This document shows, in pieces, positions 4,601-52,964 of a stretch of DNA of 63,093 bases. Source of the stretch: Pseudomonadota bacterium (GTDB lineage Bacteria > Pseudomonadota > Gammaproteobacteria > Steroidobacterales > Steroidobacteraceae); the NCBI GenBank assembly GCA_947453225.1, contig CANGFV010000003.1, positions 1-63,093 of the forward strand, written 5' to 3'. How positions within the stretch are numbered: position 1 is the first letter of the stretch; the number at the start of each line of letters is the position of its first letter. The notes under the pieces are model-generated. The model was not told the DNA's origin. It made no database searches and worked only from the letters and a program-made list of their open reading frames with translations. The position numbers were made by a program, and so were the translations under genes.

Positions 4601-4934
4601 TGACACTAACATTAGTAACGTTGCTAGAAATATTCGTTCCAACCCCAGATGTCACGGTACATTGCTGTCCGGAAGGCTGAATTCCTACGATAACCGCATA
4701 ATTACTGCCCGCTGATATAGCAGAAGCAAACGTAAATGATCCATTACTCGTACGAACCGAGGTATAGGCGCTGGTGTTATTTACTTTCAGGTTCATCACT
4801 AGAGTTTTTCCGGACAGCAACCCTGTGACATTCGCGCCGACGGTATAAGTGGTCGTTTGCGCATCAGCTGCACGTCCAAGAACGAGCATCGCCACAACCG
4901 CGACCGAGACAAGCACTCTGATTAATTTATTCAT
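1627..4934 (-). pseudogene. Frameshifted repeat-rich metallophosphoesterase (third paralog)
   Basis: Two adjacent reading frames together give one protein like the two intact giants downstream. The first (ATG 4934, signal peptide ending in ADA-QTTTY) carries seven repeat units: three of the longer SGL type, three shorter 'GASVSISGATP' units, and a seventh that breaks off. It stops near 3150, right after 'NQPVG', where the paralogs continue 'GQTC'. The second frame resumes with 'NSGDPSSNISNVTVTC' and holds a purple-acid-phosphatase N-terminal fibronectin-like domain and a metallophosphoesterase with DPH, LGDTF, GNHE and GHDH metal motifs. The frames differ by one step, and the total length is not a multiple of three. 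The 3' part has no sensible start of its own, since its first possible start (GTG at 3105) lies inside a repeat. The product would be exported. Unlike the paralogs it ends soon after the enzyme domain and lacks the shared C-terminal tail. A sequencing error at 3150-3170 is possible. Confidence 0.8.
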
Positions 4935-5070
4935 ACAAATCCGTAAATACGCCGTGATTCTGATAGTTTCTAATGAGCTAAAAATACGCATGGGAAGCCT
5001 ATACCACAAGCATGCCCATCGCTATAGACGGCATGGAAATTATATATTTTTTAACAAAATGGAAATTAGT

Positions 5071-7779: not shown

Positions 7780-8196
7780 ATCGACTCTTGGTATTAAAAA
7801 ACTTTATAGACCCGAAGCATCGTTCAAATTTAGTTTTGATGCAGGCGCTACTATATTCCTAGACCCATCGTGAATGCTAGACCAGACAACCACGGTATTC
7901 AAACCCAAGTCACACTTTTAGCACCTCAAACTCAGATTTTTTTCTTATGAATGAAACATAATGCAAATTTAAATTACTCTCCTAAGTACCAAAGAGTTTG
8001 AGCCAGGTGTTAATTTTGGGTCATTTGCCATAATCCAATCAGACATAAATCTGTGAACTAATCATTATTTTTAGCCTTAATGTTTGTCAGCAGGCAGACA
8101 CTCAGATTATATTTGGTGCAAATATTGACCATTGATCGGTCTCCCCTCCACCGACATTTAATAAAGACGATAGTTTTAGAGCCAGACGGGATACTC
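7780..8196. other. Divergent intergenic region
   Basis: These 417 bases separate the divergent YHYH and 2391-aa phosphoesterase genes. The region is AT-rich and should hold both promoters. I could not assign reliable -35/-10 pairs, hairpins or coding sequence here. Confidence 0.4.
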
Positions 8197-11100
8197 ATGA
8201 ACAAATTTGTGACAGGCTTTTTGGCCATTATTGCAGCCACTCAGCTCCTAGGTATGCAAGCAGCCAATGCAGTTCCAACTGGCCTCACTGCCGGGGGAAA
8301 TGTCTCAGGACTCAGTACAGGAAAATCTGTAGTTCTGAATTTAAGAATTAACAGCACCACCACCTACACAACAACAGTGTCTGCCAATGGCACCTATACC
8401 TTCTCTGCTTCCTTAGCAACCGGAAATACTTACAGTGCATCGGTAGGCATCCAGCCCTCTGGACACATCTGTTCTATCGCCAACTCAAGTGGAACAATCT
8501 CTTCAAGCAGCATCACCAACATTAATGTCACTTGCGTGTCTGGCTATACCGTTGGTGGCAGCCTGTCTGGTTTAGGAACCGGCACCTCTGTAGTCGTTCG
8601 CATGAACTCTGCTACCAAGATTATCAATGCCAACGGTTCATTTACCTTTGCAAGCCTGCTTGCATCTGGCAGCAGCTATGCAGTCAGTATAGGCGTACAA
8701 CCAGCCAACCAAAGATGCTTCGTAACCAACGGTACTGGAACCATTAGCGGCAGCAATATCAATAATGTTTCTATAACCTGCGCCACCACTTATACCGTCA
8801 GCGGTACGGCACCCGCAGCCGGTGTGTCGGGACTCGGTACAAGTAAGTGCGTAACGCTACAACTCAATGGCGTTGGCTCCAAGCTGGTCTGTGCTAACGG
8901 ATCATTTAGTTTTGCCAGCGGCTTAATCACCGGAGAAAACTACTCAGTCACCGTGTTAGGTCAACCCACAGGTCAACAATGTACGGCTTCAAACAACACC
9001 GGCACGATCAGCGGCGCTAACGTGACCAACGTTAAAGTAGATTGTGTCAACACCTACCAAATCTCCGTAACGAATGCTCCGGGTGCTTCTGTGTCTATTT
9101 CTGGCAGCACAGCAACGAATGCGACCAATCCAAACAACGCAACGAGCTTTAACTTCATTGCTAAGCACAATGACAACGTTTCATTGTCAGCAACTAAATC
9201 TGGACAGGTTTGCTCTGTCAGCACATCACCTTCATCACTGAGTTCAATCGCTGGCAACGCTACTGCCACGGTCATATGTAACGCGGCATATACCATCAGC
9301 GGCTCCGTCTCTGGCTTGGGCAGCGGTAAGACATTAAAACTGATCCGTACCGATGCTAGCTCTTTGGCGAACACGCAGGCTGGCGTCTCTGTTGATACTG
9401 GCAATGCATCATTCGCAGCCATTGATAACCCAGGCAGTGAATTCACTGCAGGCTGGGGATTTAGTGTAACCAGCAACCGTTTACTGACTCACTTGGGCGT
9501 ATGGTCACAAGGCTCGCTATATGGCGATGTGAGCGTAGGCATTTGGGATCAAGGCGGTAACTTACTTTCCAGTGTGTCCCTGCTAAATGCCAACCTTGAT
9601 GCATACGGATTAGACAATCAATTCTCTTATGCTGAATTACCAGGAAGCGTCATGCTCTCCGCAGGCCAACAATACACGCTTGGTGCCTTCTACACAGGAG
9701 GCGTGCTTGCAGGCTTTGGCGCACCCGTTACACCAATCAATGGCTTGAGCTTTGCCTCACCTTCATTGGTTGACTTTGGTACTTCGCTGGCCATGCCTTC
9801 TCTTAATTTCTCTTCTGTGTATTCCAACGGTCTCTTTGGCCCAAATCTGCGCTTCCTAACGGCAAGCGCTCAAGCCGCAGGCGAAGAAATCACTGTTAAC
9901 GCTGATGGTTCATTCACCTTCCCCACTGCACAGGTAGATGGCTCTACTTACGCTGTAGCCGTCAGCCAACGTCCAACCGGTCAAACCTGCGCCATCACCA
10001 ATGCTTCAGGCACAATTGCGGGTGCCAACATCAATAATGTATTAGTCACTTGCAGCAACATTAGCTACACCATTTCTGTTGCAAACAACTCAGGTGCTTC
10101 CGTATCTATCAGCGGCAGCAATGCGTCCAACGCGACCAACCCAAACACTGCATTAAGCTTTAATTTCCTTGCTGAGAAAGATGACTCCGTAGTGCTCTCA
10201 GCAAGCAAGACAGGTTACTCCTGCTCTATTACCACCACACCCGTTTCAATTAACCCAATTACTGGCAACGCGATCGCCAACGTGAATTGCACAGCAATTG
10301 TTTATACCATCGGTGGAACCAATGCCGATGGGGCGAGCGTTTCGATCAGTGGTAGCAGCGTCACCGGCCAGTCTGCCACCACCGCCACTCCATACAGCTT
10401 CAACACTAACTTCGGCGATGTCGTCACATTGACTGCAACCAAGACCGGTTATACCTGCACGGTTGCTGGCTCACCTATCACGGTTGGCACCGCTAACGTG
10501 ACCAACGCCAATGTGAGCTGCTCAAAGAACACTTACACCGTCGGCGGCACAAATGCCGATGGCGCAAGTGTTTCAATCAGCGGCAGCAGTATCACTGGCC
10601 AGTCTGCAACCACAGCTAATCCATATAGCTTCAACGCCAAATATGGTGATGTCGTCACGCTCACTGCAACAAAGACGGGTTACACCTGCGTTGTCGCAGG
10701 CTCGCCAATTACTGTAGCAGCGGCTAACGTAACCAACGCAACTGTTGGTTGCACCATTAATACCTACACCGTCAGCGGTACGGTCACTGGCAATACCAGC
10801 AGCGTCACGTTAACCAACAATGGCAGCGACAGTAAGATCGTTTCCACAGGCGGTGGCGGCTTTAGCTTCACTGCACAAAACTACAATACCAACTATTTGG
10901 TAGCCACTTCGCAACCCACAGGCCAAGTCTGCGTGGTGAGCAATGGTTCCGGCACAGTAACTGCATATGTGACTAATGTTGTTGTGACTTGTAACAATAC
11001 TTACACAATTAGCGGCTCAATCTCTGGTCTGAGCGCCAGTGGTTTAGTCTTGTCATTGTCAGGCACTCAGGGCACTGGCTTAGTCGCACCTACCAGTGAC

Positions 11101-14100
11101 ACTGCCAGCCCAGCCAGCGGATCAACTTCTTACACCTTCTCACAGCCAATGGTGAGCGGTAATACCTACGCCGTCAGTATTTCCACACAACCCGCAGGCT
11201 TTAATTGCGCTCTGGCAAATCAGACTGGAACCATTTCTACAAGCAATGTTTCCAACGTCAACGTCACTTGCTCCTCTATTAGTAGCTCAAGCTCATCAAG
11301 TGCAACTGGCCCTGCCCTAAATGCCAACATCATTCTGGGCGCACCGACAACATCAACCATATCAATGAAATTATTCACGCCTGACCAAAGTGGTAGCGTG
11401 TCTGTATCTTATGGCACTGCAACGGGCAGCTATAGCACCACAACCGCTCCGGCCAATCTTGTCGCAGGTACACCACTACAATTGAATATCTCTGGTCTAA
11501 CTCAAGATACTCAATACTTTTATATCCTCAACTTCACTTCTAGCACTGGCGGTTCCAGTCAAACAAGCGAATACACATTCCATACTGCTCGCCCTGTAGG
11601 TAGTGCATTTAAATTCACTATCACTGCAGACCCTCACCTAGACGACAAGTCGGATATCGCTGTCTATAACAAGACGTTAGATAACATTGCGACTCAAGAT
11701 ACCGACTTCCATATCGACTTGGGCGACACCTTCATGACTGAAAAGTGGTATGCCCAATTCATTCAGAGCGGTACTGGCTATCTACAAGATCCAGCCACTA
11801 CACGTGATCAAGTGCAAGCACGCTACAAGTTTGAAATGGGTAATTTCAGCCGTATTGCCAAGAAAATTCCATTGTTCTTAGTCAATGGTAACCACGATGC
11901 TGAACTGGGCTGGCTACCCTCAGGTCAAGCCAGTGCGGCAGATCTTAAATACTGGGCTATTGAAGGTCGCAGCATGTATTTCAACAACCCAACGCCAAAT
12001 ACATTCTATACAGGCGAAGCCCCATCTACTGTTCTTACCAGTGTGAATAAAACCTCAGCGTATTATTCCTGGAAATGGGGTGATGCCTTATTCATTGCAC
12101 TCGATCCTTATTGGAACAGCACAAGCACAACCAGTAATGATATTTGGAACTTAACCTTGGGTCTGACCCAATATCAGTGGCTACAAAATACGCTATCCGC
12201 CAATGCAGCCATGAAATATAAATTCATTTTCTTGCATAACTTGGTCGGCGGTGTACCGGAAATCTCTGCAACCAGCACCACAGGCATACCTGATAATCCA
12301 TGCCCAAAGAATCTTGCTTCAGGGAAACCCTGTACTGGTGGATCAATGCGCGGCGGTATTCAAGCCGCTCAATACGCCGAATGGGGTGGAGCCAACTATG
12401 ACCTGACTACCACCGGTGGCTTTGGGCCAGGCGGTTCATACAAACGCAGCACCACTGCAGGTTGGACCATGCCAGTTCATGACTTGCTGGTCCAATACGG
12501 TGTCACTGCCGTATTCCATGGTCATGACCACTTGTACGCCGATGAAACGCTAGATGGCATTAAGTATCAAGAACTGCCACAGCCAAGTACTAGTTATCAG
12601 TCCAATGCAGACACCAACAACATGAACACGCTAGCCGCACAGGGTGGCTATCCAGGCTGTATTAGCATCCCTGCTACTGCGACCTGTAAAGGTAGTTCTG
12701 GTTATCTCCTAGTAACTGTTGATCCAAATCTTGGGGTCAAGTCTCAATACATGAGAACCTATCAGCTACCAAGCCAAGGTGGCAACAATACCGAATCTGC
12801 AAGCTGGACAGTTCCGGCTCCCAATGCCACCAGCTATACCATTGGCGGTCATACTGCTAGCGGTGGTGGCCTGAGTGGCCTAGGCGCAGGGAAGAGCATC
12901 ACCCTACTGAACTCGGGCGTTGATGCGCTTGTACTGAATGCAAATGGCAACTTCACCTTTGCCACACCAAAACTCAACGGTTCAACTTATAACGTCACTG
13001 TAAGCGTTCAACCAGCTGGTCAGAATTGCACGGTAAGCAACGGCTCAGGCACGGTGAGCGGTGCTAACGTTATCAACATCGGTGTCACTTGCGTTGATGT
13101 GGTCACCTATACCATTGGTGGAAACGTGTCCGGTAATACCGGCTCAGTTACAGTGGCACTGAGCGTGGGTGGAACTCAAGTGGATACTAAGACCGTCAAC
13201 AGCGGTGGCGGTAGCTTCACATTTGCCGCTCAAAATGCAGCTTCGAACTGGAGCGTGGCCGTGACTTCCTCTCCGAGCAGTCAAACCTGTACGCTTACGA
13301 ATGGCTCAGGCTCAAATCTTGGCGCAAATGTCACCAATGTCACTGTGTCTTGTGCCGATACGCTCTATGCCTTAAGTGCCACCACTTCAGGCCTAGGCAC
13401 TGGTCGTTCTATTGGCCTGTCAGTAAATAGCGGTACCGCTACGACGATGACCAGTAATATCACCTCAACACTCGCCTCTCTCAGCACAGGCACCAGCTAC
13501 ACCATCACTCCAGTCGATCAAACGAGTACGGGTACTGGAGCAAAACGTTGCGTGGTTAGAAACCATAAAGGCATCATCTCTGCTGCTGCTGTAAACACAA
13601 CTGTGGTCTGCGCTAACGCAGTCGCCAACACTTATGTAGTGGGCGGCAGTGTTTCGGGACTGACTGGCAGCTTGGGGTTATCATTAGGTACACAAACGAT
13701 CTCATTACCTGTAGGCACTACCGGCTTTGCCTTTACTACACCAGTTGCAAACGGCACTTATACTTTGTCTGTTTCAACCCAACCCAGTGGTCAAGTATGT
13801 ACTGCTACTACTAACTCAGTAACTGTTAGCAGTGCCAATAACCTCACCACACTAGCTGTTTCTTGCGTCAACGCCTATAACGTCGGCGGTACTGTTAGCG
13901 GCTTAGGCACTGGAAAATCTGTGACCGTGCTAAACAATGGAGCTAACTCACAGACAATATCCACCAGCTCTGCCTATAGTTTCTCCATGGTCTCCGGTAG
14001 CACCTACAACGTAACAGTGGGCACTCAACCTACCGATCAATTGTGCTTGGTGATGAATGCATCGGGTACGGTTGGTACCTCAGATATCACAAATATCTCA

Positions 14101-15372
14101 GTAGTTTGCTACGACTACGCCACGATCAGTGTTGTGGTATCTGGCCTTGCAAATCCACTGACCTCGGGTTCAGTAGTTGTGACATTGAATGGAGATACTA
14201 ATACTGCCAACCAATTGACATTCACTACAAACAACGCAGCACAGTCCTTCTCCACAAAGATTCCGCCTGGTAACAGCTACGCAGTTACCATCGTTTCGAA
14301 TACGGTTGTGGCCGCTAGAGCTTGTATTGTCACCAATGGTGTGGGCACCACTAGCACGAGCACACCTACTACGGTGACTGTGAATGTGGTTTGTAAGTCA
14401 CCACCAGCCGGTAGTAAATATTATTTAAGTGGTACTGTTTCAGGTCTAACTGGCACTGGATTGGTCATTACCCTGAATAATCTAGCTACAACACCAAGCC
14501 CAGGTGTTACCACTGCTGAAAACATTACGCTTGTTGCTGGATCAACAGGATTCGCCTTCTCAACTCCAGTGAATGGCACGAATAACGTCGCTGGCAATAC
14601 CTATCCTGGACTCATCACGGTTACAACACAGCCTACCGGTCAGTTGTGTACGGTGGCCAATAATGGATCTGTAAACGTGAAAAACGCCAATGTGACAAAC
14701 ATTGCCATCACCTGCTCCACTGCTTACAGCATTGGTGGTACCGTCAGCGGCTTGGGTACAGGCTTAAGCTTAGTCTTAACTAGTGGTACTGATACTCTGA
14801 CTGTAAGCAGTAACGGAAGCTTTACACTTCCCACCTCCGTCTCTTCGGGTACAAGCTACAACGTAGCTGTAGGTACGCAACCAACCAATCAAACCTGCTT
14901 ACTATCCAACAACTCTGGCACGGTATCGGCCAATGTGACTAACATCGTTGTCAGCTGTACCACGACCAGCTTCACCATCGGCGGTACTATTTCAGGCCTT
15001 GGTGCCAACCCAGTCATCCTGCTGAACAACGGTGGAGATGCATTAACTATCAATGCTAACGGTACCTTTACCTTTGCTACAGCAATAGCCTCTGGTAGTT
15101 ATGCAGTGACCGTGGGCACTCAGCCTACCGGAATGTATTGCCAAGTGACTCAAGGCACGGGTACGGTCGGTAGCACCAACATCGACAGCGTCGTAGTCAC
15201 CTGCTCTAGCACCACAGCTTGCAGTAGCCCAACGAATGCAGTGCCACCAACCAGTGACCCACTGTGGGCGATCTACAGCTCGCCAACCGACTCTGCTGTG
15301 GATTCCACACCAGAAATCACAACGGAATTGGCCAATCCGTTCGCTACCTGCTTAGCGGGCTCAACCCCCTAA
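8197..15372 (+). CDS. Giant repeat-containing metallophosphoesterase A (2391 aa)
   Basis: This is an exported giant protein. The start at 8197 is chosen because it gives a signal peptide (MNKFVTGFLAIIAATQLLG, cleavage after ANA); the frame extends upstream without one. The order is: ten repeat units; a Ser-rich linker; a purple-acid-phosphatase N-terminal-like domain (about 1038-1134); a calcineurin-like metallophosphoesterase (about 1135-1530, with DPH, LGDTF, GNHD, LHNLVGG and GHDH metal-site motifs); nine more repeats; and a conserved 48-aa tail. Most repeats follow 'Y-t-[IV]-[GS]-G-x-[VI]-SGLG ... NGSF.F ... QPTGQ.C.V.NGSGT ... VTNV.V.C', with two cysteines likely forming a disulfide (inference). 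Shorter 'GASVSISG' variants lie at units 4 and 6-8. Unit 5 carries an extra DUF4082-like sandwich (nt about 9355-9885). The enzyme probably hydrolyses phosphate esters outside the cell; the substrate is unknown. Confidence 0.85.
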   Translation: MNKFVTGFLAIIAATQLLGMQAANAVPTGLTAGGNVSGLSTGKSVVLNLRINSTTTYTTTVSANGTYTFSASLATGNTYSASVGIQPSGHICSIANSSGTISSSSITNINVTCVSGYTVGGSLSGLGTGTSVVVRMNSATKIINANGSFTFASLLASGSSYAVSIGVQPANQRCFVTNGTGTISGSNINNVSITCATTYTVSGTAPAAGVSGLGTSKCVTLQLNGVGSKLVCANGSFSFASGLITGENYSVTVLGQPTGQQCTASNNTGTISGANVTNVKVDCVNTYQISVTNAPGASVSISGSTATNATNPNNATSFNFIAKHNDNVSLSATKSGQVCSVSTSPSSLSSIAGNATATVICNAAYTISGSVSGLGSGKTLKLIRTDASSLANTQAGVSVDTGNASFAAIDNPGSEFTAGWGFSVTSNRLLTHLGVWSQGSLYGDVSVGIWDQGGNLLSSVSLLNANLDAYGLDNQFSYAELPGSVMLSAGQQYTLGAFYTGGVLAGFGAPVTPINGLSFASPSLVDFGTSLAMPSLNFSSVYSNGLFGPNLRFLTASAQAAGEEITVNADGSFTFPTAQVDGSTYAVAVSQRPTGQTCAITNASGTIAGANINNVLVTCSNISYTISVANNSGASVSISGSNASNATNPNTALSFNFLAEKDDSVVLSASKTGYSCSITTTPVSINPITGNAIANVNCTAIVYTIGGTNADGASVSISGSSVTGQSATTATPYSFNTNFGDVVTLTATKTGYTCTVAGSPITVGTANVTNANVSCSKNTYTVGGTNADGASVSISGSSITGQSATTANPYSFNAKYGDVVTLTATKTGYTCVVAGSPITVAAANVTNATVGCTINTYTVSGTVTGNTSSVTLTNNGSDSKIVSTGGGGFSFTAQNYNTNYLVATSQPTGQVCVVSNGSGTVTAYVTNVVVTCNNTYTISGSISGLSASGLVLSLSGTQGTGLVAPTSDTASPASGSTSYTFSQPMVSGNTYAVSISTQPAGFNCALANQTGTISTSNVSNVNVTCSSISSSSSSSATGPALNANIILGAPTTSTISMKLFTPDQSGSVSVSYGTATGSYSTTTAPANLVAGTPLQLNISGLTQDTQYFYILNFTSSTGGSSQTSEYTFHTARPVGSAFKFTITADPHLDDKSDIAVYNKTLDNIATQDTDFHIDLGDTFMTEKWYAQFIQSGTGYLQDPATTRDQVQARYKFEMGNFSRIAKKIPLFLVNGNHDAELGWLPSGQASAADLKYWAIEGRSMYFNNPTPNTFYTGEAPSTVLTSVNKTSAYYSWKWGDALFIALDPYWNSTSTTSNDIWNLTLGLTQYQWLQNTLSANAAMKYKFIFLHNLVGGVPEISATSTTGIPDNPCPKNLASGKPCTGGSMRGGIQAAQYAEWGGANYDLTTTGGFGPGGSYKRSTTAGWTMPVHDLLVQYGVTAVFHGHDHLYADETLDGIKYQELPQPSTSYQSNADTNNMNTLAAQGGYPGCISIPATATCKGSSGYLLVTVDPNLGVKSQYMRTYQLPSQGGNNTESASWTVPAPNATSYTIGGHTASGGGLSGLGAGKSITLLNSGVDALVLNANGNFTFATPKLNGSTYNVTVSVQPAGQNCTVSNGSGTVSGANVINIGVTCVDVVTYTIGGNVSGNTGSVTVALSVGGTQVDTKTVNSGGGSFTFAAQNAASNWSVAVTSSPSSQTCTLTNGSGSNLGANVTNVTVSCADTLYALSATTSGLGTGRSIGLSVNSGTATTMTSNITSTLASLSTGTSYTITPVDQTSTGTGAKRCVVRNHKGIISAAAVNTTVVCANAVANTYVVGGSVSGLTGSLGLSLGTQTISLPVGTTGFAFTTPVANGTYTLSVSTQPSGQVCTATTNSVTVSSANNLTTLAVSCVNAYNVGGTVSGLGTGKSVTVLNNGANSQTISTSSAYSFSMVSGSTYNVTVGTQPTDQLCLVMNASGTVGTSDITNISVVCYDYATISVVVSGLANPLTSGSVVVTLNGDTNTANQLTFTTNNAAQSFSTKIPPGNSYAVTIVSNTVVAARACIVTNGVGTTSTSTPTTVTVNVVCKSPPAGSKYYLSGTVSGLTGTGLVITLNNLATTPSPGVTTAENITLVAGSTGFAFSTPVNGTNNVAGNTYPGLITVTTQPTGQLCTVANNGSVNVKNANVTNIAITCSTAYSIGGTVSGLGTGLSLVLTSGTDTLTVSSNGSFTLPTSVSSGTSYNVAVGTQPTNQTCLLSNNSGTVSANVTNIVVSCTTTSFTIGGTISGLGANPVILLNNGGDALTINANGTFTFATAIASGSYAVTVGTQPTGMYCQVTQGTGTVGSTNIDSVVVTCSSTTACSSPTNAVPPTSDPLWAIYSSPTDSAVDSTPEITTELANPFATCLAGSTP
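10303..10764 (+). repeat. Two 231-bp in-frame tandem units within phosphoesterase A
   Basis: Units 10303-10533 and 10534-10764 each encode 77 residues beginning YT[IV]GGTNADGASVSISGSS. They are nearly identical in protein sequence but differ at many third codon positions. Confidence 0.85.
15220..15369 (+). other. Conserved C-terminal tail, copy 1
   Basis: This encodes the last roughly 48 residues of phosphoesterase A, lying outside the repeat pattern: CSS..., then DPLWAIYSSPT, VDSTPEI and CL near the end. The same motif order ends two other proteins (20518-20660 and 21481-21627). Confidence 0.8.
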
Positions 15373-15400
15373 GCAATAGAGTTCTAGTAGTAGAAAATTT

Positions 15401-15432
15401 AACCCGGATGGAATCACCTTCCGGGTTTTTTA
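15401..15432 (+). terminator. Terminator of phosphoesterase A
   Basis: An 8-bp stem (AACCCGGA 15401-15408 and TCCGGGTT 15420-15427) is followed by TTTTT, 28 bases after the stop codon. Confidence 0.85.
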
Positions 15433-15611
15433 TTGGGGTAAAACACTAAAAACCCTGGGCATCTAGACTAATTCAGAACACCACCCTCGGCAGTGACTCG
15501 AAACCGTCATTTAACATATGCACCGTATCTGTGAACTGACTACATAAAACCACCAATAAGAGGTAATATAATTTTCATTACCTTAACAAAAACATGCTCG
15601 GGGATATTGCA

Positions 15612-18600
15612 ATGCGGAAGCTCGTTAAAGGCGCCATAGCCTTAGTACTTACTGGCTATTTATCACTGATAAATACCGCCAGTGCACAAACTACTTATTC
15701 AGTGGGTGGCTCTGTATCTGGACTGGCCACAGGCAAATCCGTGGTACTGCTCAATAACGGTAGCAATGCCCGCCTTGTTAGTAGCAATGGCTCGTTTAGC
15801 TTCTCTACAGGGCTGAGCGCAGGCTCAACTTATAGAGTCTCTGTGGGCATTCAACCCTCAGGTCAGGTGTGTTCTGTCACTAACGCTACGGGCACTGTGA
15901 GTAGCAGCAATGTCACTTCAGTGAGTATCAGTTGTAGTAACTCGTACACTGTGAGTGGTTCAATTTCCGGCCTTGACACCTCTGGCTTAGTACTGCGCCT
16001 CAATTCAAGTTCCTTGTTAGTCAATAGTGCCGCCACATCATTTAAGTTTTCATCGGCATTAACTACGGGTGCCGCCTATGCCGTCTCAGTAGGTATTCAA
16101 CCTTCTGGCTATAATTGTAGTGTGACTAACGGCATCGGCATCATCGCCAGCGCATCCATCACAAATGTATCCGTGAACTGCCAAAGAACTTATACCGTCA
16201 GTGGCACTGTCTCCGGTCTCACGGCAAGCGGTCTACTACTGCAACTGAATAACCCCACCGGCCCTACTAAACTAGTTGCAAGTGGATCATCATCATTTAG
16301 TTTTGCTAGCGGCCTCGCTTCAGGTGCCTCTTACAATGTAACTGTTTCCAGTCAGCCTTCAGGGTTAACCTGCTTGGTCACTAATGGTTCTGGCAACATT
16401 GTTTCTTCAAACATCACGAACGTCAGCGTTGCCTGCGCACCAACCACTTATACTATCGGTGGTGCAGTCACAGGTTTAGGTAGTAGCTTATCCCTTACCT
16501 TGCTCAATAACGATGCTAACGCCATTACCATCAATGGCAGTGGCGATTTAAACTTTGTGTTCTCTCCTGCCGTGGTCTCTGGCACCAGCTACAACATCAC
16601 AGTGGGCACCCAACCCACCGGACAAAACTGTACGGTAGGCAATGGTGGCGGCACAGTCGGTACTCAAAACATTAGTAACGTCAGCGTTAGCTGCGTGAAC
16701 GTTATTCCATTAGATGCCACGATCGTATTAGGCACGCCCACCACTGATAGCATCGCAATGAAATTATTCACCCCTGATCAAAGTGGTACGGTCAGCGTGT
16801 CTTATGGCACAAACTCAGGAAGCTACTCGACGACAACTGATCCCGTAGCGCTAGTCGCCGGCACACCATTGGCACTGAACATCGCCAACCTCGTCAATAA
16901 CACTCAATATTTTTATCGTATTAATTATCAGGCATCTAATGGCGGCAGCCAGACACCAGAATACAAATTCCACACCGCACGGCCTGTTGGTGAAACCTTC
17001 ACCTTTGCGATCCAAGCTGATCCGCACATGGATGAAAAAACTGAGGTCGCGCTGTATCAACGCACACTGAACAATATTGTTTCCGATGCCCCTGACTTCA
17101 TCGTCGATCTGGGCGATACCTTCATGACTGAGAAACACCAAGTTCAATTAGAGGCCACAGTGCACTCAGCCACTAGCCCAGAAATGGTAAATCTGCGCTA
17201 TCAAAGCGACCTGCCCTTATTCGGCATCATCACTCACTCCGTGCCATTGTTCCTAGTGAATGGTAACCACGACGCTGAACTGGGTTGGCTGGCCAGCAAG
17301 ATACCACCGCTGAATCAATTGCCAACTTGGGCATTTAATGCACGTCAGTCTTATTTTCCGAACCCTGTTAAGAACAGTTTCTATGATGGTGAAGATGTTT
17401 CTGTATTGAACACTGCACCACGCGCTTCATACTATTCATGGAAATGGGGTGATGCCCTGTTTATCGCGCTCGATCCATTCTTCAATAGCGCCACTGCCAC
17501 GGGCAAAACTAGCAGCGGCTGGAACCTAACCTTAGGTAAAGCACAATATGATTGGTTAGCCAGCACCCTCGCTGCCAATGCCGGCCTTAAATACAAATTC
17601 GTCTTCCTGCATAACCTTGTCGGCGGCATGCCAGACATTGATACTGCCACTGGCCTGCCTGCAACCAACCCAACAACAGGACAACCTTACATTGGTGGTT
17701 CCATGCGTGGCGGCATAGAAGCCGCTAAGTACTTCGAATGGGGCGGCACAAACTATGATGGCGCTACTGATGGCTTTGCAGCCAATCGCCCAGGTTGGTC
17801 ACAACCTATTCACCAACTGCTCAAAGACAACAATGTGACTGCGGTATTCCACGGTCATGACCACCTCTACGTGGATCAGGAATTGGATGGCATCAAATAC
17901 CAAGAAGTCCCACAACCTAGCGCCGGCAGCACCGCTAACAGCGCAACTCTATCCAAGGAAGGTGGTTACTTGAGCGGTAACATTGATAGCAGCAGTGGCT
18001 ATCTAAAGATCACTGTCTCTCCAAGCGGCGTCACTACAGACTACGTGAGATCTTGGCTCCCTGCAGGTACCGCCGGTACCAACAACGTTGAAAATGGCAC
18101 GACCAAAATCAACAAACAAATTTCTAAAACTTGGACGGTGAACTCAGGTGCAGCTAAGTATGCCGTAGGTGGTACGGTAAGCGGCCTGAGTGGCACAGTA
18201 TCTCTGAGCAACAACGGTAACAACTCTCTCACGCTCAATGCCAATGGCTCGTTCAATTTCTCCAAGATTCTGGCCACGGGCAGCGCCTATGCGGTGACAG
18301 TCACCAGCCAACCTGTGGGTCAAACCTGTACAGTCACCAACGGTTTAGGAACGATTGGTTCTGCAAACATTGTCAACATCAATGTCACTTGCGCAGCCAA
18401 TACATTCACTGTGGGCGGTACCGTTTCTGGTCATACAGGCACCATTACACTAACGAACAATGGTGGCAATGCCATTAATATCCCCGTGGGAACTACAAGC
18501 TTCACTTTCCCTGCTCAGAATTTCGGTAGCAACTGGGATGTTGAAATCGCCACTACCCCTGCCGGCGAAACCTGCTCGGTTTCAAGCAATGGCGCTGGCA

Positions 18601-20663
18601 CCAACCTCACTGCAAACGTATCGGACGTTACCGTCACCTGCGGCAGTGCTACCCACAGTATTGGCGGAACAGTGACTGGCTTAGGGACGGGTCTATCGGT
18701 TGTGCTCCGTAACAATGGCGGCGACGATCTCACCGTCAATGCCAATGGGTCTTTTAGTTTCTCTACCACACTAGTCTCTGGATCCCCCTACTCGGTTTCC
18801 GTCTTTACCCAACCTTCAGGTCAAACCTGTTTGCTAGTTAATAATTCTGGAAACGTCGGTAGCACTGATGTTACAAACATCACCGTCAACTGTACTGCCA
18901 ATAGTTTCACCATTGGTGGAAAACTATCTGGCCTAGGCTCTGGATTGTCTGTTGTTCTACAGAACAATTTGGGCGACGACCTCACCGTCAGCAGCAATGG
19001 AACATTCACCTTTGCAACGCCATTAACTTCTGGGACTTACAGCGTCACCGTTAAAACTCAACCTGTGGAACAGGTGTGTACCGTCACCGGTGGCTCAGGC
19101 ACGGTTATAGCTAACGTAACCAGCATCAGCATCAATTGCGTAACTAACACTTACTCAATGCAAGTTAGAGTCAGTGGCCTCTCTGCAGGCATGGGATCAA
19201 ACCTTAGCGTAGCTCTTTATATCAATGACGGAGCGACACCAACCTCAACACTCAGTGTCGCTTATGGCAATGCGAACAACACTAACCTCAAATTTACTCC
19301 GGATCTCAAGTTTGCTACAGGCACTAAATACAACGTCGTGGTTGCAACGCAGCCAGTCGACTCAAGTAATGGCGCAGTAAGACGCTGCGTTGTAAGTAAT
19401 GGCGTGGGCACTTACTCTGGTGTGACGGTTACGGTTCAACTGTATTGCTCGACTGCAACTGGCAATACAGTTGGCGGTACGGTGACAGGCCTCTCTAGCC
19501 TCCTAGATCTAACCCTATCCTCTAATTACACCGCATCAACCGCCACAGTTAAGCTCGTGGCAGGCTCCAGTGGCTTCACCTTTGGTGCGCTTGGAACTAC
19601 CTTTATTCCTGCAGGATCGACCTATACGGTCACCGCAGGAACACCCTACTACATCGTTTCAGGCTCGGGCGCGACTGCAGTTACTGCACCCACCGGACAA
19701 ACCTGTACCCTTGAAAATGCCACGGGCACCATGGCGTCCAGCGATATCACTAACGTCACGATAAGCTGTAAATACAACGGCTATACCGTCGGCGGCACCA
19801 TCAGCGGACATACCGGAAACGTTCAACTGACCAACAGTGGAAGCACCATCACAGTACCTTCTAGTGCCAGTAGCTTTGTGTTCCCTGAACAGCAACCCGG
19901 CACTAACTATAATGTCTCGGTGACACCGCCTACTGGTCAATCCTGTAATGTGACCAACGGATCTGGTACAAATATCTCTGCAAACGTCACCAATGTTGCT
20001 GTGGTCTGCTACTCAACCTATAGCATCGGCGGTACTGTGTCTGGACTGAACGGCACAGTGACACTCAAGAACAACAACAGCGACTCTAAACAAGTTTCTG
20101 CAAATGGCAGCTTCTCGTTCTTGACTAAATTAACTAACGGAAGTGGCTATAACGTTACTGTAGATATTCAGCCTGATGGACAGATCTGCTTGCTGACTAA
20201 CAACTCCGGCACTGTGTCTGGATCAGATGTCACTGGCGTCTTGGTGCTGTGCTCAACCAACACCTACACCATTGGCGGCTCAGTCACCGGTCTTGGCAAT
20301 GGCCTCTCGTTGGTCGTATATAGAAACAATAGTGAATCAGTCACCATTAACGGAAATGGTTCATTCGCCTTCCTTACTTCAGTGGCTGCAGGCCCCTATG
20401 TTGTGACGGTTGCCGGTCAACCGACAGGTCAAACCTGCTCGGTTGCTAATGGCTCAGGTAGCGTGACAAACTCGAACATCAGCAACATTGTTGTCACCTG
20501 TACAACGAATGTCGGTGGCTGTAGTAGCGCATCTCATGCCAATGCGCCAACAGACCCATTCTGGCCAATCTACAGCGCACCAACATCACCTGATGTGGAT
20601 ACAACCCCACAGATTGACTCAGAACAGCCTAATCTGTTCGAGAACTGCTTGTCTGGAAACTAG
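15612..20663 (+). CDS. Giant repeat-containing metallophosphoesterase B (1683 aa)
   Basis: This paralog of the preceding gene is in the same orientation but separated by a terminator and about 180 bp. The start at 15612 is preferred over the ATG at 15594 because GGGATATT lies just upstream and the product begins with a good signal peptide (MRKLVKGAIALVLTGYLSL, cleavage after ASA). Four repeats precede a purple-acid-phosphatase N-terminal-like domain (about 365-455) and a metallophosphoesterase (about 460-840; DPH, LGDTF, GNHD, LHNLVGG, GHDH). Nine repeats and the conserved 48-aa tail follow. It lacks the short 'GASVSISG' units and the DUF4082-like insert of paralog A. The enzyme domains of A, B and the broken copy are closely alike, including the segments around 'YYSWKWGDALFIALDP'. 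Predicted role: a secreted or surface phosphoesterase held in a repeat-built stalk. Confidence 0.85.
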   Translation: MRKLVKGAIALVLTGYLSLINTASAQTTYSVGGSVSGLATGKSVVLLNNGSNARLVSSNGSFSFSTGLSAGSTYRVSVGIQPSGQVCSVTNATGTVSSSNVTSVSISCSNSYTVSGSISGLDTSGLVLRLNSSSLLVNSAATSFKFSSALTTGAAYAVSVGIQPSGYNCSVTNGIGIIASASITNVSVNCQRTYTVSGTVSGLTASGLLLQLNNPTGPTKLVASGSSSFSFASGLASGASYNVTVSSQPSGLTCLVTNGSGNIVSSNITNVSVACAPTTYTIGGAVTGLGSSLSLTLLNNDANAITINGSGDLNFVFSPAVVSGTSYNITVGTQPTGQNCTVGNGGGTVGTQNISNVSVSCVNVIPLDATIVLGTPTTDSIAMKLFTPDQSGTVSVSYGTNSGSYSTTTDPVALVAGTPLALNIANLVNNTQYFYRINYQASNGGSQTPEYKFHTARPVGETFTFAIQADPHMDEKTEVALYQRTLNNIVSDAPDFIVDLGDTFMTEKHQVQLEATVHSATSPEMVNLRYQSDLPLFGIITHSVPLFLVNGNHDAELGWLASKIPPLNQLPTWAFNARQSYFPNPVKNSFYDGEDVSVLNTAPRASYYSWKWGDALFIALDPFFNSATATGKTSSGWNLTLGKAQYDWLASTLAANAGLKYKFVFLHNLVGGMPDIDTATGLPATNPTTGQPYIGGSMRGGIEAAKYFEWGGTNYDGATDGFAANRPGWSQPIHQLLKDNNVTAVFHGHDHLYVDQELDGIKYQEVPQPSAGSTANSATLSKEGGYLSGNIDSSSGYLKITVSPSGVTTDYVRSWLPAGTAGTNNVENGTTKINKQISKTWTVNSGAAKYAVGGTVSGLSGTVSLSNNGNNSLTLNANGSFNFSKILATGSAYAVTVTSQPVGQTCTVTNGLGTIGSANIVNINVTCAANTFTVGGTVSGHTGTITLTNNGGNAINIPVGTTSFTFPAQNFGSNWDVEIATTPAGETCSVSSNGAGTNLTANVSDVTVTCGSATHSIGGTVTGLGTGLSVVLRNNGGDDLTVNANGSFSFSTTLVSGSPYSVSVFTQPSGQTCLLVNNSGNVGSTDVTNITVNCTANSFTIGGKLSGLGSGLSVVLQNNLGDDLTVSSNGTFTFATPLTSGTYSVTVKTQPVEQVCTVTGGSGTVIANVTSISINCVTNTYSMQVRVSGLSAGMGSNLSVALYINDGATPTSTLSVAYGNANNTNLKFTPDLKFATGTKYNVVVATQPVDSSNGAVRRCVVSNGVGTYSGVTVTVQLYCSTATGNTVGGTVTGLSSLLDLTLSSNYTASTATVKLVAGSSGFTFGALGTTFIPAGSTYTVTAGTPYYIVSGSGATAVTAPTGQTCTLENATGTMASSDITNVTISCKYNGYTVGGTISGHTGNVQLTNSGSTITVPSSASSFVFPEQQPGTNYNVSVTPPTGQSCNVTNGSGTNISANVTNVAVVCYSTYSIGGTVSGLNGTVTLKNNNSDSKQVSANGSFSFLTKLTNGSGYNVTVDIQPDGQICLLTNNSGTVSGSDVTGVLVLCSTNTYTIGGSVTGLGNGLSLVVYRNNSESVTINGNGSFAFLTSVAAGPYVVTVAGQPTGQTCSVANGSGSVTNSNISNIVVTCTTNVGGCSSASHANAPTDPFWPIYSAPTSPDVDTTPQIDSEQPNLFENCLSGN
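20518..20660 (+). other. Conserved C-terminal tail, copy 2
   Basis: The tail of phosphoesterase B has CSS, then DPFWPIYSAPTSP, VDTTPQI, NLF and CL, in the same order and spacing as the other two copies. Confidence 0.8.
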
Positions 20664-20686
20664 CAGTCATTAAAAACGTCAAGATC

Positions 20687-20721
20687 GAGCCAGATAATGG
20701 AAGTTATCTGGCTCTTTTTTT
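20687..20721 (+). terminator. Terminator of phosphoesterase B
   Basis: An 11-bp stem (GAGCCAGATAA 20687-20697 and TTATCTGGCTC 20704-20714) is followed by TTTTTTT. Confidence 0.9.
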
Positions 20722-20779
20722 AGAATCCTTTAACGCAGCCATATCACCGCGCAATCTGCCTTTTAGCTACAGAGACACC

Positions 20780-21349
20780 ATGAAACGTTCGGCCACATAC
20801 CTGTTGGGTTTGCTGTTATCCGTATGGGTCGCAGCCCCCACTTGGGCCGATGTCAGCAATAATAAAATTGTTATCACCAAACTTAACAAACGCTGCCTAA
20901 ACGTCGATTTTTCTATATCGCCTGTATTTACTATCCATCAAATTCTGACACCCCAAATGGCTTGGGATAGCTTTTTTATTCACTACACTGGATTAAACGA
21001 ACTGGCATTTAAGAAGGAAATTGCAAAGATTGCCAGCGTCCTTCAAGCCACTTCTAAAATTACCGACTTAGAAGGTAGAGCCTTTGTATTTGCCAATTGG
21101 AAATGGCCCGAAGCCCAGCCCTGGATGAAAATACTAAAAGAGGAACAAATTCTTTTTATGACTGGCTCAAACTCACAAGGTCACGCCAAACCCATTTTCA
21201 TTCATGCACAAGCTTGCACTAATCAAACCATCAGCACAGTTCAGTTTGCCTTTGATGCAAGGCTGTATCCAATCGATATTACCGCTGCAGAAAACAATCA
21301 GATTGTCCTAACTAAAGAAGCTCCGTTTGCTACGGCAGAGTTTTATTAA
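20780..21349 (+). CDS. Secreted protein of unknown function
   Basis: I do not recognise this 189-aa protein. It starts with a standard Sec signal peptide (MKRSATYLLGLLLSVWVAAP, cleavage near TWA-DVS). The mature part is about 165 residues with two cysteines (in 'NKRCLNVDF' and 'HAQACTNQ'), several aromatic residues and no further membrane segment. It is expected in the periplasm or outside the cell. It has terminators on both sides, so it is probably transcribed alone. It sits between phosphoesterase B and the lipoprotein gene, and so may belong to the same surface system, but nothing in the protein itself shows this. The ATG at 20780 has only a weak ribosome binding site. Confidence 0.7.
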   Translation: MKRSATYLLGLLLSVWVAAPTWADVSNNKIVITKLNKRCLNVDFSISPVFTIHQILTPQMAWDSFFIHYTGLNELAFKKEIAKIASVLQATSKITDLEGRAFVFANWKWPEAQPWMKILKEEQILFMTGSNSQGHAKPIFIHAQACTNQTISTVQFAFDARLYPIDITAAENNQIVLTKEAPFATAEFY

Positions 21350-21410
21350 TAGCCTTACGACCCAGAAATGGTTATCTGTTTGCAGTTAACCCAGAGCGAA
21401 TAACTCAATT

Positions 21411-21448
21411 AAAAAGAGCCAAATGATTTAAGTCATCTGGCTCTTTAG
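21411..21448. terminator. Bidirectional terminator between convergent genes
   Basis: AAAGAGCCAAATGA (21413-21426) pairs with TCATCTGGCTCTTT (21433-21446) with one mismatch. A runs on the left and T runs on the right let it serve both the 189-aa gene and the convergent lipoprotein gene. Confidence 0.75.
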
Positions 21449-21477
21449 TCTGCTAACAATGCTAATTTCGGCTTTAG

Positions 21478-24400
21478 TTATGTTGGCTGTAAGCAACTCT
21501 GGAACAGATTAGGTAGTTCCGTGGTAATCAGAGGCGTCGTATCAACCCCGGGCGAAGTCGGCGCACTGTAGATCGCCCAGAATGGATCTGTGGACGGCGT
21601 ACCAGCATTTCCAGCACTACTACATCCATTCACATTAGTTGAGCAAGTGACAGTGATATTGGTGATATCAGTGGTACCGACTGCGCCTGACCCATTTGTG
21701 ATAACACATGATTGACCCAAAGGCTGCGTACCTATTGAAACCACATACGCCCCGGCTGCCATCGGCGATGCAAAGGTAAATGAACCATTGGCAGTAATTG
21801 ATAGCGCATCACTACCATTTTTGAGTAGTACGACAGAAAGACCGTTACCTAAACCAGACACCGTACCGCCAAGGGTGTAGGTATTCGTAGTACATGAAAC
21901 CAACACGTTAGTGTTATTGGACGCAGCAATCACACCGGAGCCATTAAGCACCAGACAAATCTGACCCGTAGGGCTGACTGAAACGGTCACGTTGTAAGCT
22001 GAGCCGCCACCTAACCCACTGGAGAACGTGAAGGTGCCTTTTGGCCTTAAAACGGATGTTGAATTCGTCCCATTATTGAGCAGCGTGACAGTACCTGTAT
22101 TGCCCATTAGCTTACCGCCCACTGTGTATGTTCCTGCAGATGTACAACTTACTGAAGCCGAAGTACTAGATGAAATATTCGCGATAGAAGCTGGTGTTAC
22201 CGTACATGTATACCCTGTCTTAGCCGCAGATAAGCTAATGCTGTTGCTAGGATTCGCCAAGAAGTTAAAGCTTGTCGCACTGTTTGGATTCGTCGCATTT
22301 GCAGCTGTACTACCTGCGATATCCACTGATGCTAATTGACCATTCGTAACCGAAATTGAATACGTATTAGTTATGCAGTTCACCTGCACAGTGGTCACGG
22401 TACTCAACCCAACAACTCCAACGCCATTCAATACTTCACAAGTTTGACCCACAGGCTGAGTCTCAACGGTTACTGTATAGGCATCGCCGCTCGATACAGG
22501 AGTTGGAAAATAAAAACTACCATTTGATGTGATATCCAACGATTCATTCGTTGCAGTCATACCAGAGAATTTGATATTTGGTCCGAAGAACCCATAAGGA
22601 TTAGCGGCACTTAAATCTTCCGTGGGCGCCTCAAATACTGAATTAAATGTCATAAGAGAATACTTATTGATGGTTAATCCACTAATAGGATTAACGGTTA
22701 CGTTATATGAAGCAAAATGATCCGTACTACTATAGGCCCCAACCGTATATAGACCTGGACCTAAAGTAACTTCAGCTACAGGCAACCAAATAAAGCCACT
22801 AACGCCAACATCACTAAGATCTAAATTAGCAAGACTCCCAGAAAAAACTCCACTAGCAAGTAAAGTACCACTGAGATCCCAAAGCCCTACCTGAACATCT
22901 GAAGTAAAATCATTGTTGTACAAACCTAAAGCAGAAACCTTCTGACTACCCACCAAACTAAATGACCAACCATAATTACCTGCCCCAGATATTTCAGCAG
23001 GCATGTCAGTAGGAGCAGCGAAGCTAACAGCAGCAACAGATGGCGCATTATTACCAATGGTTTTTAAGAGTCTAACTGAGTTCCCGACTCCCAATCCAGT
23101 GACCGCACCTCCAATCTTTAGAGATGAACATGCAACAGTCACATTCGCATCACCGATTATTGGACTGATACTTGATGGAGTGACAGAACAGTCATATCCG
23201 GCCTTGTTTGCAGAGAAGCTCACATTGTCACCATAGTTCGCAATGAAGGTGAAGCTGGCAGCACTGTTTGGATTGGTGGCGTTCGTGGCTGTGCTGCCAC
23301 TGATTGATACAGAAGCCGCTGGAGTGTTAGTCACAGTGATCGTGTAGGTATTGGCAATACAACTGACATTCGCATTCGTTACATTGGCAGCGGCAACCGT
23401 GACTGGAGAGGCCGCAATAACGCAACCTGAGTACCCCGTCTTCGAAGCCGTCAGGATCACAGTGTCACCAGACTTAGCACTGACGCTATACGTACCAGCA
23501 TTGACTGTCACTGTATTGCTGACCGTGCTACCACTGGCCACCACTGTGGCGCCATCAGTCGTACCGCTGACGGTGTAGGTATTGGCAATACAACTGACAT
23601 TGGCGGTCGTGACATTAGTCGCACCCACCGTAATTGGAGAGCCGGCCACCGTACAGGTGTAACCCGCCTTCGTTGCCGTCAGGGTGACCCCTTCACCGTA
23701 CTTGGCATTAAAGCTATATGAGTTTGCTGTCGTGGCTGCTTGACCAGTGAGGGTCGTACCACTGATCGATACGCTTGCACCCGCAGTATTTGTACCACCC
23801 ACCGAGTACGTATTCAAAGTACAACTGACCGTTGCAGTGGCATTGCCTGTGATTGGGTTGATCGAGGCTGGCGTAGTAGCTACTGTACAGGTGTTACCTG
23901 TCTTCGTGCCTGATAGCACCACAGCATCACCGTGCTTGGCTGAGAAGTTAAAGCTGGTGGCGCTATTTGGATTAGTGGCATTCGTTGCGGTGCTGCCACT
24001 GATTGTAACTGCGGCTGCTGAGCTGTTTGTTACCGCAATCGTGTAAGCATTCACAGTGCAAGTGACATTCACCACGATATTGGTCGTACCCACCGTGCCC
24101 GTCGCAGGATTAGGTGATAGCGTGCAGGTCTGACCCTTCGGCTGAGCACTGATCGTCACAGTGTAGCTGTTGCCGTTCACTAACGTCTGCGAGAAGACAT
24201 ATGAAGTCGAACCACTGGCAGGACTGACCGTCCCGCTCTTCGATCCACTCAAAGACAAACTCAAGCCGCTGGCACTGAGACCTGAGATTGAGCCACCAAC
24301 GGTGTATGTCGTATCCGTACACATCACAGACACATTCGTGACATTGGCACCAGCAAGGGTGCCGGAGCCATTCAATACACTACAGGTCTGACCCACAGGC

Positions 24401-24852
24401 TGTGTCAACACAGTCACATTGTAGGTATTAGCATTACTTTGGGCAGGGAAGCTGAAGATAGTCGCAGGATTGGTCACTGTTTGATCGTTCGCACCATTGT
24501 TCTGTAGAACTATAGACTTGCCTGAACCTAATCCAGAGACCGTACCACTGACGGTATAAATAGCAGGGACACTGCTACTACTGCTGGAGCTACTGACCAC
24601 TGAGCTCGATGCACTAGAATTCACACTACCTGCACTACTTGAGCTGGTTACCGAACTTAGAGAACCAGCTGAACTTGTTGAGCTAGATACAACACTACTG
24701 CTCGAACTACCAGCAACTGAGCTAGATGAGCTAGATGAGCTTGATGAGCTTGATGAGCTTGAAAGAGTATCAGTTGGCGAACCTCCACCACATCCGCTCA
24801 ACGCAAACAACAACCCAGAAATACAAATAGAGTAAAAATATTTACCTAGCAC
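21478..24852 (-). CDS. Repeat-rich surface lipoprotein sharing repeats and tail with the phosphoesterases
   Basis: This 1124-aa protein starts at a GTG (24852); an in-frame stop lies four codons upstream. The signal peptide ends in a lipobox, LSGC (Cys about 21), so the protein should be lipid-anchored. A Ser-rich linker of about 75 residues follows. Ten repeat units come next. Units 1, 2, 9 and 10 are the long 'SGLG ... QP.GQ.C ... VTNV.V.C' type. Units 3-6 and 8 are the short 'SVSISGST..NATNPNSA' type. Unit 7 contains a DUF4082-like sandwich (nt about 22560-23040), like unit 5 of phosphoesterase A. The same C-terminal tail as A and B closes the protein. There is no enzyme domain. It could be a surface anchor or partner for the secreted phosphoesterases (inference). 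The gene lies opposite to them and 40 bases downstream of a YfaZ-like gene, so it may be co-transcribed with it. Confidence 0.82.
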   Translation of the reverse strand: MLGKYFYSICISGLLFALSGCGGGSPTDTLSSSSSSSSSSSSSSSVAGSSSSSVVSSSTSSAGSLSSVTSSSSAGSVNSSASSSVVSSSSSSSSVPAIYTVSGTVSGLGSGKSIVLQNNGANDQTVTNPATIFSFPAQSNANTYNVTVLTQPVGQTCSVLNGSGTLAGANVTNVSVMCTDTTYTVGGSISGLSASGLSLSLSGSKSGTVSPASGSTSYVFSQTLVNGNSYTVTISAQPKGQTCTLSPNPATGTVGTTNIVVNVTCTVNAYTIAVTNSSAAAVTISGSTATNATNPNSATSFNFSAKHGDAVVLSGTKTGNTCTVATTPASINPITGNATATVSCTLNTYSVGGTNTAGASVSISGTTLTGQAATTANSYSFNAKYGEGVTLTATKAGYTCTVAGSPITVGATNVTTANVSCIANTYTVSGTTDGATVVASGSTVSNTVTVNAGTYSVSAKSGDTVILTASKTGYSGCVIAASPVTVAAANVTNANVSCIANTYTITVTNTPAASVSISGSTATNATNPNSAASFTFIANYGDNVSFSANKAGYDCSVTPSSISPIIGDANVTVACSSLKIGGAVTGLGVGNSVRLLKTIGNNAPSVAAVSFAAPTDMPAEISGAGNYGWSFSLVGSQKVSALGLYNNDFTSDVQVGLWDLSGTLLASGVFSGSLANLDLSDVGVSGFIWLPVAEVTLGPGLYTVGAYSSTDHFASYNVTVNPISGLTINKYSLMTFNSVFEAPTEDLSAANPYGFFGPNIKFSGMTATNESLDITSNGSFYFPTPVSSGDAYTVTVETQPVGQTCEVLNGVGVVGLSTVTTVQVNCITNTYSISVTNGQLASVDIAGSTAANATNPNSATSFNFLANPSNSISLSAAKTGYTCTVTPASIANISSSTSASVSCTSAGTYTVGGKLMGNTGTVTLLNNGTNSTSVLRPKGTFTFSSGLGGGSAYNVTVSVSPTGQICLVLNGSGVIAASNNTNVLVSCTTNTYTLGGTVSGLGNGLSVVLLKNGSDALSITANGSFTFASPMAAGAYVVSIGTQPLGQSCVITNGSGAVGTTDITNITVTCSTNVNGCSSAGNAGTPSTDPFWAIYSAPTSPGVDTTPLITTELPNLFQSCLQPT
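21481..21627 (-). other. Conserved C-terminal tail, copy 3
   Basis: The end of the lipoprotein has CSS, then DPFWAIYSAPTSP, VDTTPLI, NLF and CL. It is nearly identical to copy 2 although the rest of the protein has no phosphoesterase. Confidence 0.8.
24721..24772. repeat. 9-bp microsatellite encoding the poly-serine linker
   Basis: About six tandem copies of GCT[AT]GATGA occur here. On the minus strand they encode serines in the lipoprotein linker. Because the unit is 9 bp, copy-number change would lengthen or shorten the linker without shifting frame. Confidence 0.75.
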
Positions 24853-50385: not shown

Positions 50386-50479
50386 GGAGCTTGAATTTAA
50401 CTAGAATGAGAATTGTGTATTGTAGCGTATAAGGTTCGTAGTGTTGTTGAATGTTCCCTAAACTGTGCACCCAAAGCTG

Positions 50480-52870: not shown

Positions 52871-52964
52871 GCACCCCCACCTATCTGTGACAGACCTCAC
52901 AGGTAGTGCATGTTTTCACCGTATAAACATGCATTTCTCGGAATTGAACTTAATAATCCGGCAC

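Follow-up and report, generated by a model that had tools for sequence, protein, structure and literature searches.

A conserved C-terminal module with two invariant cysteines on exported phosphoesterases and lipoproteins in three Steroidobacteraceae genomes

Background

Signal peptides and lipoboxes are well established as signals that export proteins. The described systems closest to the element considered here are C-terminal sorting signals. GlyGly-CTERM, PEP-CTERM and LPXTG each combine a motif, a membrane helix and a basic cluster, and co-occur with a cognate enzyme, rhombosortase, exosortase and sortase respectively (PMC3237569). MYXO-CTERM is likewise tripartite, consisting of a Cys motif, a transmembrane helix and an Arg-rich end; a genome encodes dozens of proteins that carry it, and it is served by its own intramembrane protease, myxosortase (PMC11980579).

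We analysed a window of 63,093 nucleotides (the whole stretch of DNA considered here, contig CANGFV010000003.1 of the Steroidobacteraceae assembly GCA_947453225.1), in which three exported proteins share a C-terminal tail. Like GlyGly-CTERM, PEP-CTERM and LPXTG, this tail is a shared ending at the extreme C-terminus of exported proteins that otherwise differ, but the helix and basic cluster are absent from it and no enzyme was found among the neighbours inspected. With MYXO-CTERM it shares an invariant Cys in a C-terminal element on exported, surface-destined proteins, although it has neither helix nor basic end and few carriers. The carriers are also reminiscent of MSCRAMM/CnaB-type surface proteins, in which a terminal module is borne on a rod of Ig-like repeats; this likeness is confined to the repeats, by weak fold matches, whereas for the tail neither Pfam nor the PDB gives a match.

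Results and discussion

Three carriers in the window

Protein A (8080..15372, forward strand; judging from the sequence, translation probably begins at the internal ATG at 8197) has a Sec signal peptide, roughly 17 repeat units with a metallophosphoesterase domain among them, and the tail (15220..15369, forward strand, 50 aa, CSSPTNAVPPTSDPLWAIYSSPTDSAVDSTPEITTELANPFATCLAGSTP). Protein B (15594..20663, forward strand) comprises a signal peptide, 13 repeats, a metallophosphoesterase domain and the tail (20520..20660, forward strand, 47 aa, CSSASHANAPTDPFWPIYSAPTSPDVDTTPQIDSEQPNLFENCLSGN). Protein C (21478..24852, reverse strand) is a lipoprotein with a FALSGC lipobox, a Ser-rich linker, repeats and the tail (21481..21624, reverse strand, 48 aa, CSSAGNAGTPSTDPFWAIYSAPTSPGVDTTPLITTELPNLFQSCLQPT). 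Both A and B match the Pfam metallophosphoesterase (calcineurin-like) family PF00149, and in each this domain is flanked by arrays of approximately 80-residue repeats; no enzyme domain was found in protein C with Pfam. Counted from its first Cys to the last residue, the tail is placed directly behind the last repeat in all three proteins, outside the repeat arrays. It opens with Cys and carries a second Cys 4-6 residues from the C-terminal end, and the motifs follow in the order CSS, DP[FL]W.IYS[AS]PT, VD[TS]TP.I and N.F..CL. This motif order is as described in an earlier note made from the sequence of the window, and the three tails are homologous.

Distribution of the tail

A profile built from the A, B and C tails gave exactly three matches in the window's own 1.86 Mb genome (G000; E 7e-34 to 3e-29), which are its training rows. 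Untrained matches were obtained in two other genomes, both metagenome-assembled (CAILZL01, VK3_bin-0953; CANGBB01, Jr-28aug17-207): four in G003, of the same genus as the window genome (E 1.5e-24 to 4e-18), and one in G032, of another genus of the same family (E 1.1e-16). These untrained matches place the motif far beyond chance. Sample names suggest that both of these genomes and that of the window derive from lakes. A second profile (A2), built from all eight tail sequences, revealed credible tails on eight proteins in the same three genomes when run over the full family (217 genomes), and a sample of 396 genomes of the order returned these three genomes only. No further tail was found in samples of the class (369 genomes) and phylum (398 genomes), which yielded one chance match in a broken frame; when 84,980 species genomes were scanned with a pattern, the G003 and G032 loci alone were recovered, and plasmids gave no match. 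Two viral-contig matches (L074 and L075) were rejected as internal motifs in unrelated proteins, and matches in G548 and G014 because they lie within short broken frames. A Pfam search with the tail gave no match; the best NCBIfam hit, JDVT-CTERM, involved one of the eight members at E 0.023 and was treated as noise, and a PDB sequence search found no relative (best E 0.018 over 20 positions). On present evidence the tail is lineage-restricted: the three genomes that have it belong to two genera within a single family. The earlier note had expected such a profile to find the tail on many large exported proteins. The five new tails all lie at the extreme C-terminus, but eight carriers in three genomes fall well short of many.

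Sequence and predicted structure

The eight tails are 45-50 residues long, and each forms the extreme C-terminus of its open reading frame; credible tails are never internal. Every tail contains exactly two Cys residues, 41-42 residues apart, and no other, and the protein ends 1-6 residues after the last Cys. All eight thus show the paired cysteines at fixed spacing in an exported protein that characterise disulfide-closed extracellular domains, and 15 columns of the alignment are invariant across the two genera. The earlier note's description of a tail framed by two fixed cysteines, with no hydrophobic helix or basic end, extends to the whole set. The best 15-residue Kyte-Doolittle mean is at most 0.94 in all eight tails, compared with 1.7-2.5 for readable signal peptide cores, and K+R is zero in six tails and one and two in the remaining two. 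None has the transmembrane helix of the tripartite signals.

Structure prediction was less informative for the tail than for the repeats. AlphaFold2 modelled the tail alone with low confidence from eight sequences (pLDDT 68, pTM 0.26), and together with the last repeat, again from eight sequences, the tail reached pLDDT 53-66 and was not confidently placed on the repeat. As no confident fold was obtained from eight sequences, the tail could equally be a peptide-like ligand or a globular domain. The repeat, in contrast, is modelled as a confident beta-sandwich (pLDDT ~95) with weak matches to CnaB/SdrD-like folds (Foldseek best E 1.8e-3), and for this reason the repeats fit a display stalk.

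The tail lies directly behind the last repeat in all seven repeat-bearing carriers, and their last repeats all lack one residue ahead of the SYxVTV strand. This arrangement could be accommodated by a passive end-cap that, without any specific partner, shields the stalk from proteolysis by lying over the last repeat's exposed edge. We consider such a role unlikely: the model places the tail on the repeat without confidence, the G032 carrier offers no repeat to cap, and many proteins of the same or related genomes end in a bare repeat, stopping right after it without a tail (G000 C47 and C2; two in G003 C15, with others in C24 and C33; G001 C12 and C2).

Conservation relative to the repeats

The note had also described the tail as more alike among the three proteins than the adjacent repeats are. 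This is weakly so for A, B and C (51, 58 and 68% identity for the tails versus 47, 56 and 54% for the last repeats), but it does not hold generally, since over all 21 pairs the mean identity is approximately 56% for tails and last repeats alike. It is reversed in proteins D and E of G003, which share 87% and 81% identity in their last two repeats but 56% in their tails. Near-copy repeats beside divergent tails indicate that the repeats recombine, whereas the tails evolve separately and are not simply carried along. Codon comparison of the tails gave pS values of 0.58-1.05, which approach saturation, and pN/pS ratios of 0.25-0.43. The tail is therefore old and under purifying selection, and its occurrences, spread over three genomes, are not the recent paralogs of one genome that the note had named as a possible refutation. 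It is a real, selected and as yet unnamed C-terminal module.

These comparisons also bear on whether the tail might have no function of its own and descend from the 3' end of a single ancestral gene that spread through duplication and recombination. Seven of the eight carriers do come from one repeat family and are clustered in the genome, and recombination among the repeats is evident from the 87% identity of the last repeats of D and E and from two identical repeats in E. Nevertheless, this explanation is very improbable in view of purifying selection at near-saturated synonymous divergence, the invariant columns over two genera, the divergence of the D and E tails next to near-copy repeats, and a stand-alone carrier in G032. 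The two identical repeats are adjacent (lipoprotein E of G003, L023 568-2583, reverse strand; 100% identity), which points to a recent duplication. The hypothesis that the last repeats all descend from one common repeat was not upheld, the repeat tree being unresolved.

A minimal carrier

The G032 carrier (G032:C1:268721-269184) is only 154 residues long and consists of a signal sequence with a LAGC lipobox, a serine-rich linker of ~75 residues, the tail and the stop codon. Because it has no repeats, the tail lies outside the repeats, as the note had claimed. With only lipobox, serine linker and tail present, it is the tail that must do the work of this protein. The lipobox already anchors it and nothing else is left to sort, which argues against a sorting role.

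Tail-free sister proteins and secretion machinery

In the window genome the tail is found on three of at least nine repeat-family proteins. Phosphoesterases and repeat proteins that possess a signal peptide or lipobox but no tail occur in all three carrier genomes (G000 C51 and window 1627-5009; G003 C28, C30 and C33; G032 C1 and C2), and several of these sisters match the carriers in the type of their signal peptide or lipobox. Many phosphoesterases of the same kind function without any tail in the neighbourhood. The tail-free gene in the window occupies two frames on the reverse strand, with repeats at 3150-5009 and the phosphoesterase at 1627-3105; its G003 counterpart is a single open frame, 58% identical, and the split is due to a frameshift in the gene or to an error in the assembly. 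The idea that the tail is an alternative to a lipid anchor was rejected, because tail-less phosphoesterases have plain signal peptides or lipoboxes and three of the carriers are themselves lipoproteins.

The note's central suggestion was a common secretion, anchoring or assembly step. Read as a sorting signal, the tail would be recognised by a dedicated machine that then secretes, cleaves or anchors the carriers. The strict C-terminal position on different exported proteins, the conserved motif and the invariant cysteines would suit such a signal, and a type II secretion secretin is encoded in all three tail genomes. The secretin, however, is equally present in tail-free relatives and therefore does not track the tail, and no dedicated protease, sortase or other secretion or processing gene of the kind the note had predicted was found among the neighbours inspected. 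The tail lacks a hydrophobic segment and has hardly any basic residues. The carrier genomes also encode sister proteins that do without it, several of them with a signal peptide of the same kind; one carrier, a lipoprotein, has no domain besides the tail; and only eight carriers are known, from 3 of 217 family genomes. Sorting or secretion is accordingly a doubtful function for the tail; what survives of the suggestion is a modular C-terminal element, for which assembly or docking is favoured.

Genes adjoining the tail loci

All eight tail genes encode, or adjoin genes for, surface metallophosphoesterases or YHYH proteins. A, B and both of their G003 counterparts are phosphoesterases with the tail fused to them, while elsewhere the tail is encoded by a separate neighbouring gene. 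Tail protein D of G003 is encoded 182 nt behind the gene for a tail-less phosphoesterase (L024:10375-13239), and in the same genome the gene for tail lipoprotein E and a YHYH gene diverge from each other across 164 nt. The tail gene of G032 lies 162 nt before two in-line tail-less phosphoesterase lipoproteins. Fusion to an enzyme at some loci and separation into an adjacent gene at others is the usual sign of a functional link. Part of this linkage could reflect old tandem duplication of one locus.

In the window, an 824-aa exported protein with a YHYH motif (GYHYHA; 5305..7779, reverse strand) is divergent from A; it has no Pfam match and shares 65% identity with the YHYH protein whose gene diverges from that of tail lipoprotein E in G003. 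Downstream of B lies a 189-aa exported protein of no known family (20780..21349, forward strand), 128 nt from the gene for protein C, with a 50% identical relative in the same position, beside phosphoesterases, in G003. It was rejected as a partner of the tail because weak relatives occur in tail-free genomes, so that it is not tail-specific; such distant relatives are found near phosphoesterase/YHYH genes in G773 and G283. The neighbourhood of YHYH/PEBP, phosphoesterase and 189-aa genes is also present without tails in G773, where a gene beside phosphoesterase genes joins a YHYH-type protein (GRADDYHYHA) to a PEBP-like domain (L085, G773:C62, 3078-5405, reverse strand). A YHYH and PEBP-like fusion is likewise found at G003 L021:2615-5119 (Pfam YHYH and PBP), which marks this as a recurring surface gene cluster.

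A possible role at the cell surface

We tentatively propose, as a plausible reading that falls somewhat short of probable, that the tail is a lineage-restricted C-terminal docking or capping domain, predicted to be closed by a disulfide, of a surface phosphoesterase gene cluster. A signal peptide or lipobox would export each carrier out of the cytoplasm, after which the tail would act as a small autonomous domain, in which the two invariant cysteines most likely pair as a disulfide outside the cytoplasm and close an acidic loop of ~44 residues. The beta-sandwich repeats, as a putative stalk, or the serine linker would display the tail at the end of the protein, where it may dock to or cap the same envelope or extracellular partner on the lipid-anchored carrier and, in genomes that have them, on the secreted phosphoesterases. 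The low-confidence fold of the tail and the existence of working phosphoesterases without it count against docking. Each carrier genome encodes exactly one tail lipoprotein (3/3), alongside two secreted carriers in G000 and three in G003. A narrower version, in which the tail is a specific docking tag of a surface phosphoesterase assembly, so that the single lipid-anchored tail protein of each cell and the secreted phosphoesterases carrying the tail share a receptor or bind one another, appears distinctly unlikely. Such a tag would retain secreted enzymes on a Gram-negative surface by a non-hydrophobic, disulfide-closed element.

If the tail does dock enzymes at the cell surface, it would do so without a helix. 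With only two genera of a single family represented, its general importance is limited. The system nevertheless provides a clear test bed, with a natural minimal carrier, enzyme fusions and separations, and tail-free sisters in the same genomes.

Other observations

A separate, tail-less phosphoesterase subtype (L063, L058, L099 and L059), represented in four genomes, has a common C-terminal ending of its own, SWLP..C....QSCE.G.H.N.E....[SD]TW/SWT. Elsewhere in the window a HEAT-repeat Ser/Thr protein kinase is followed by a T2SSE-family ATPase (50465-54053, forward strand), and two more eukaryotic-type kinases are encoded at 34481-37039 (forward strand) and 38965-40254 (reverse strand).
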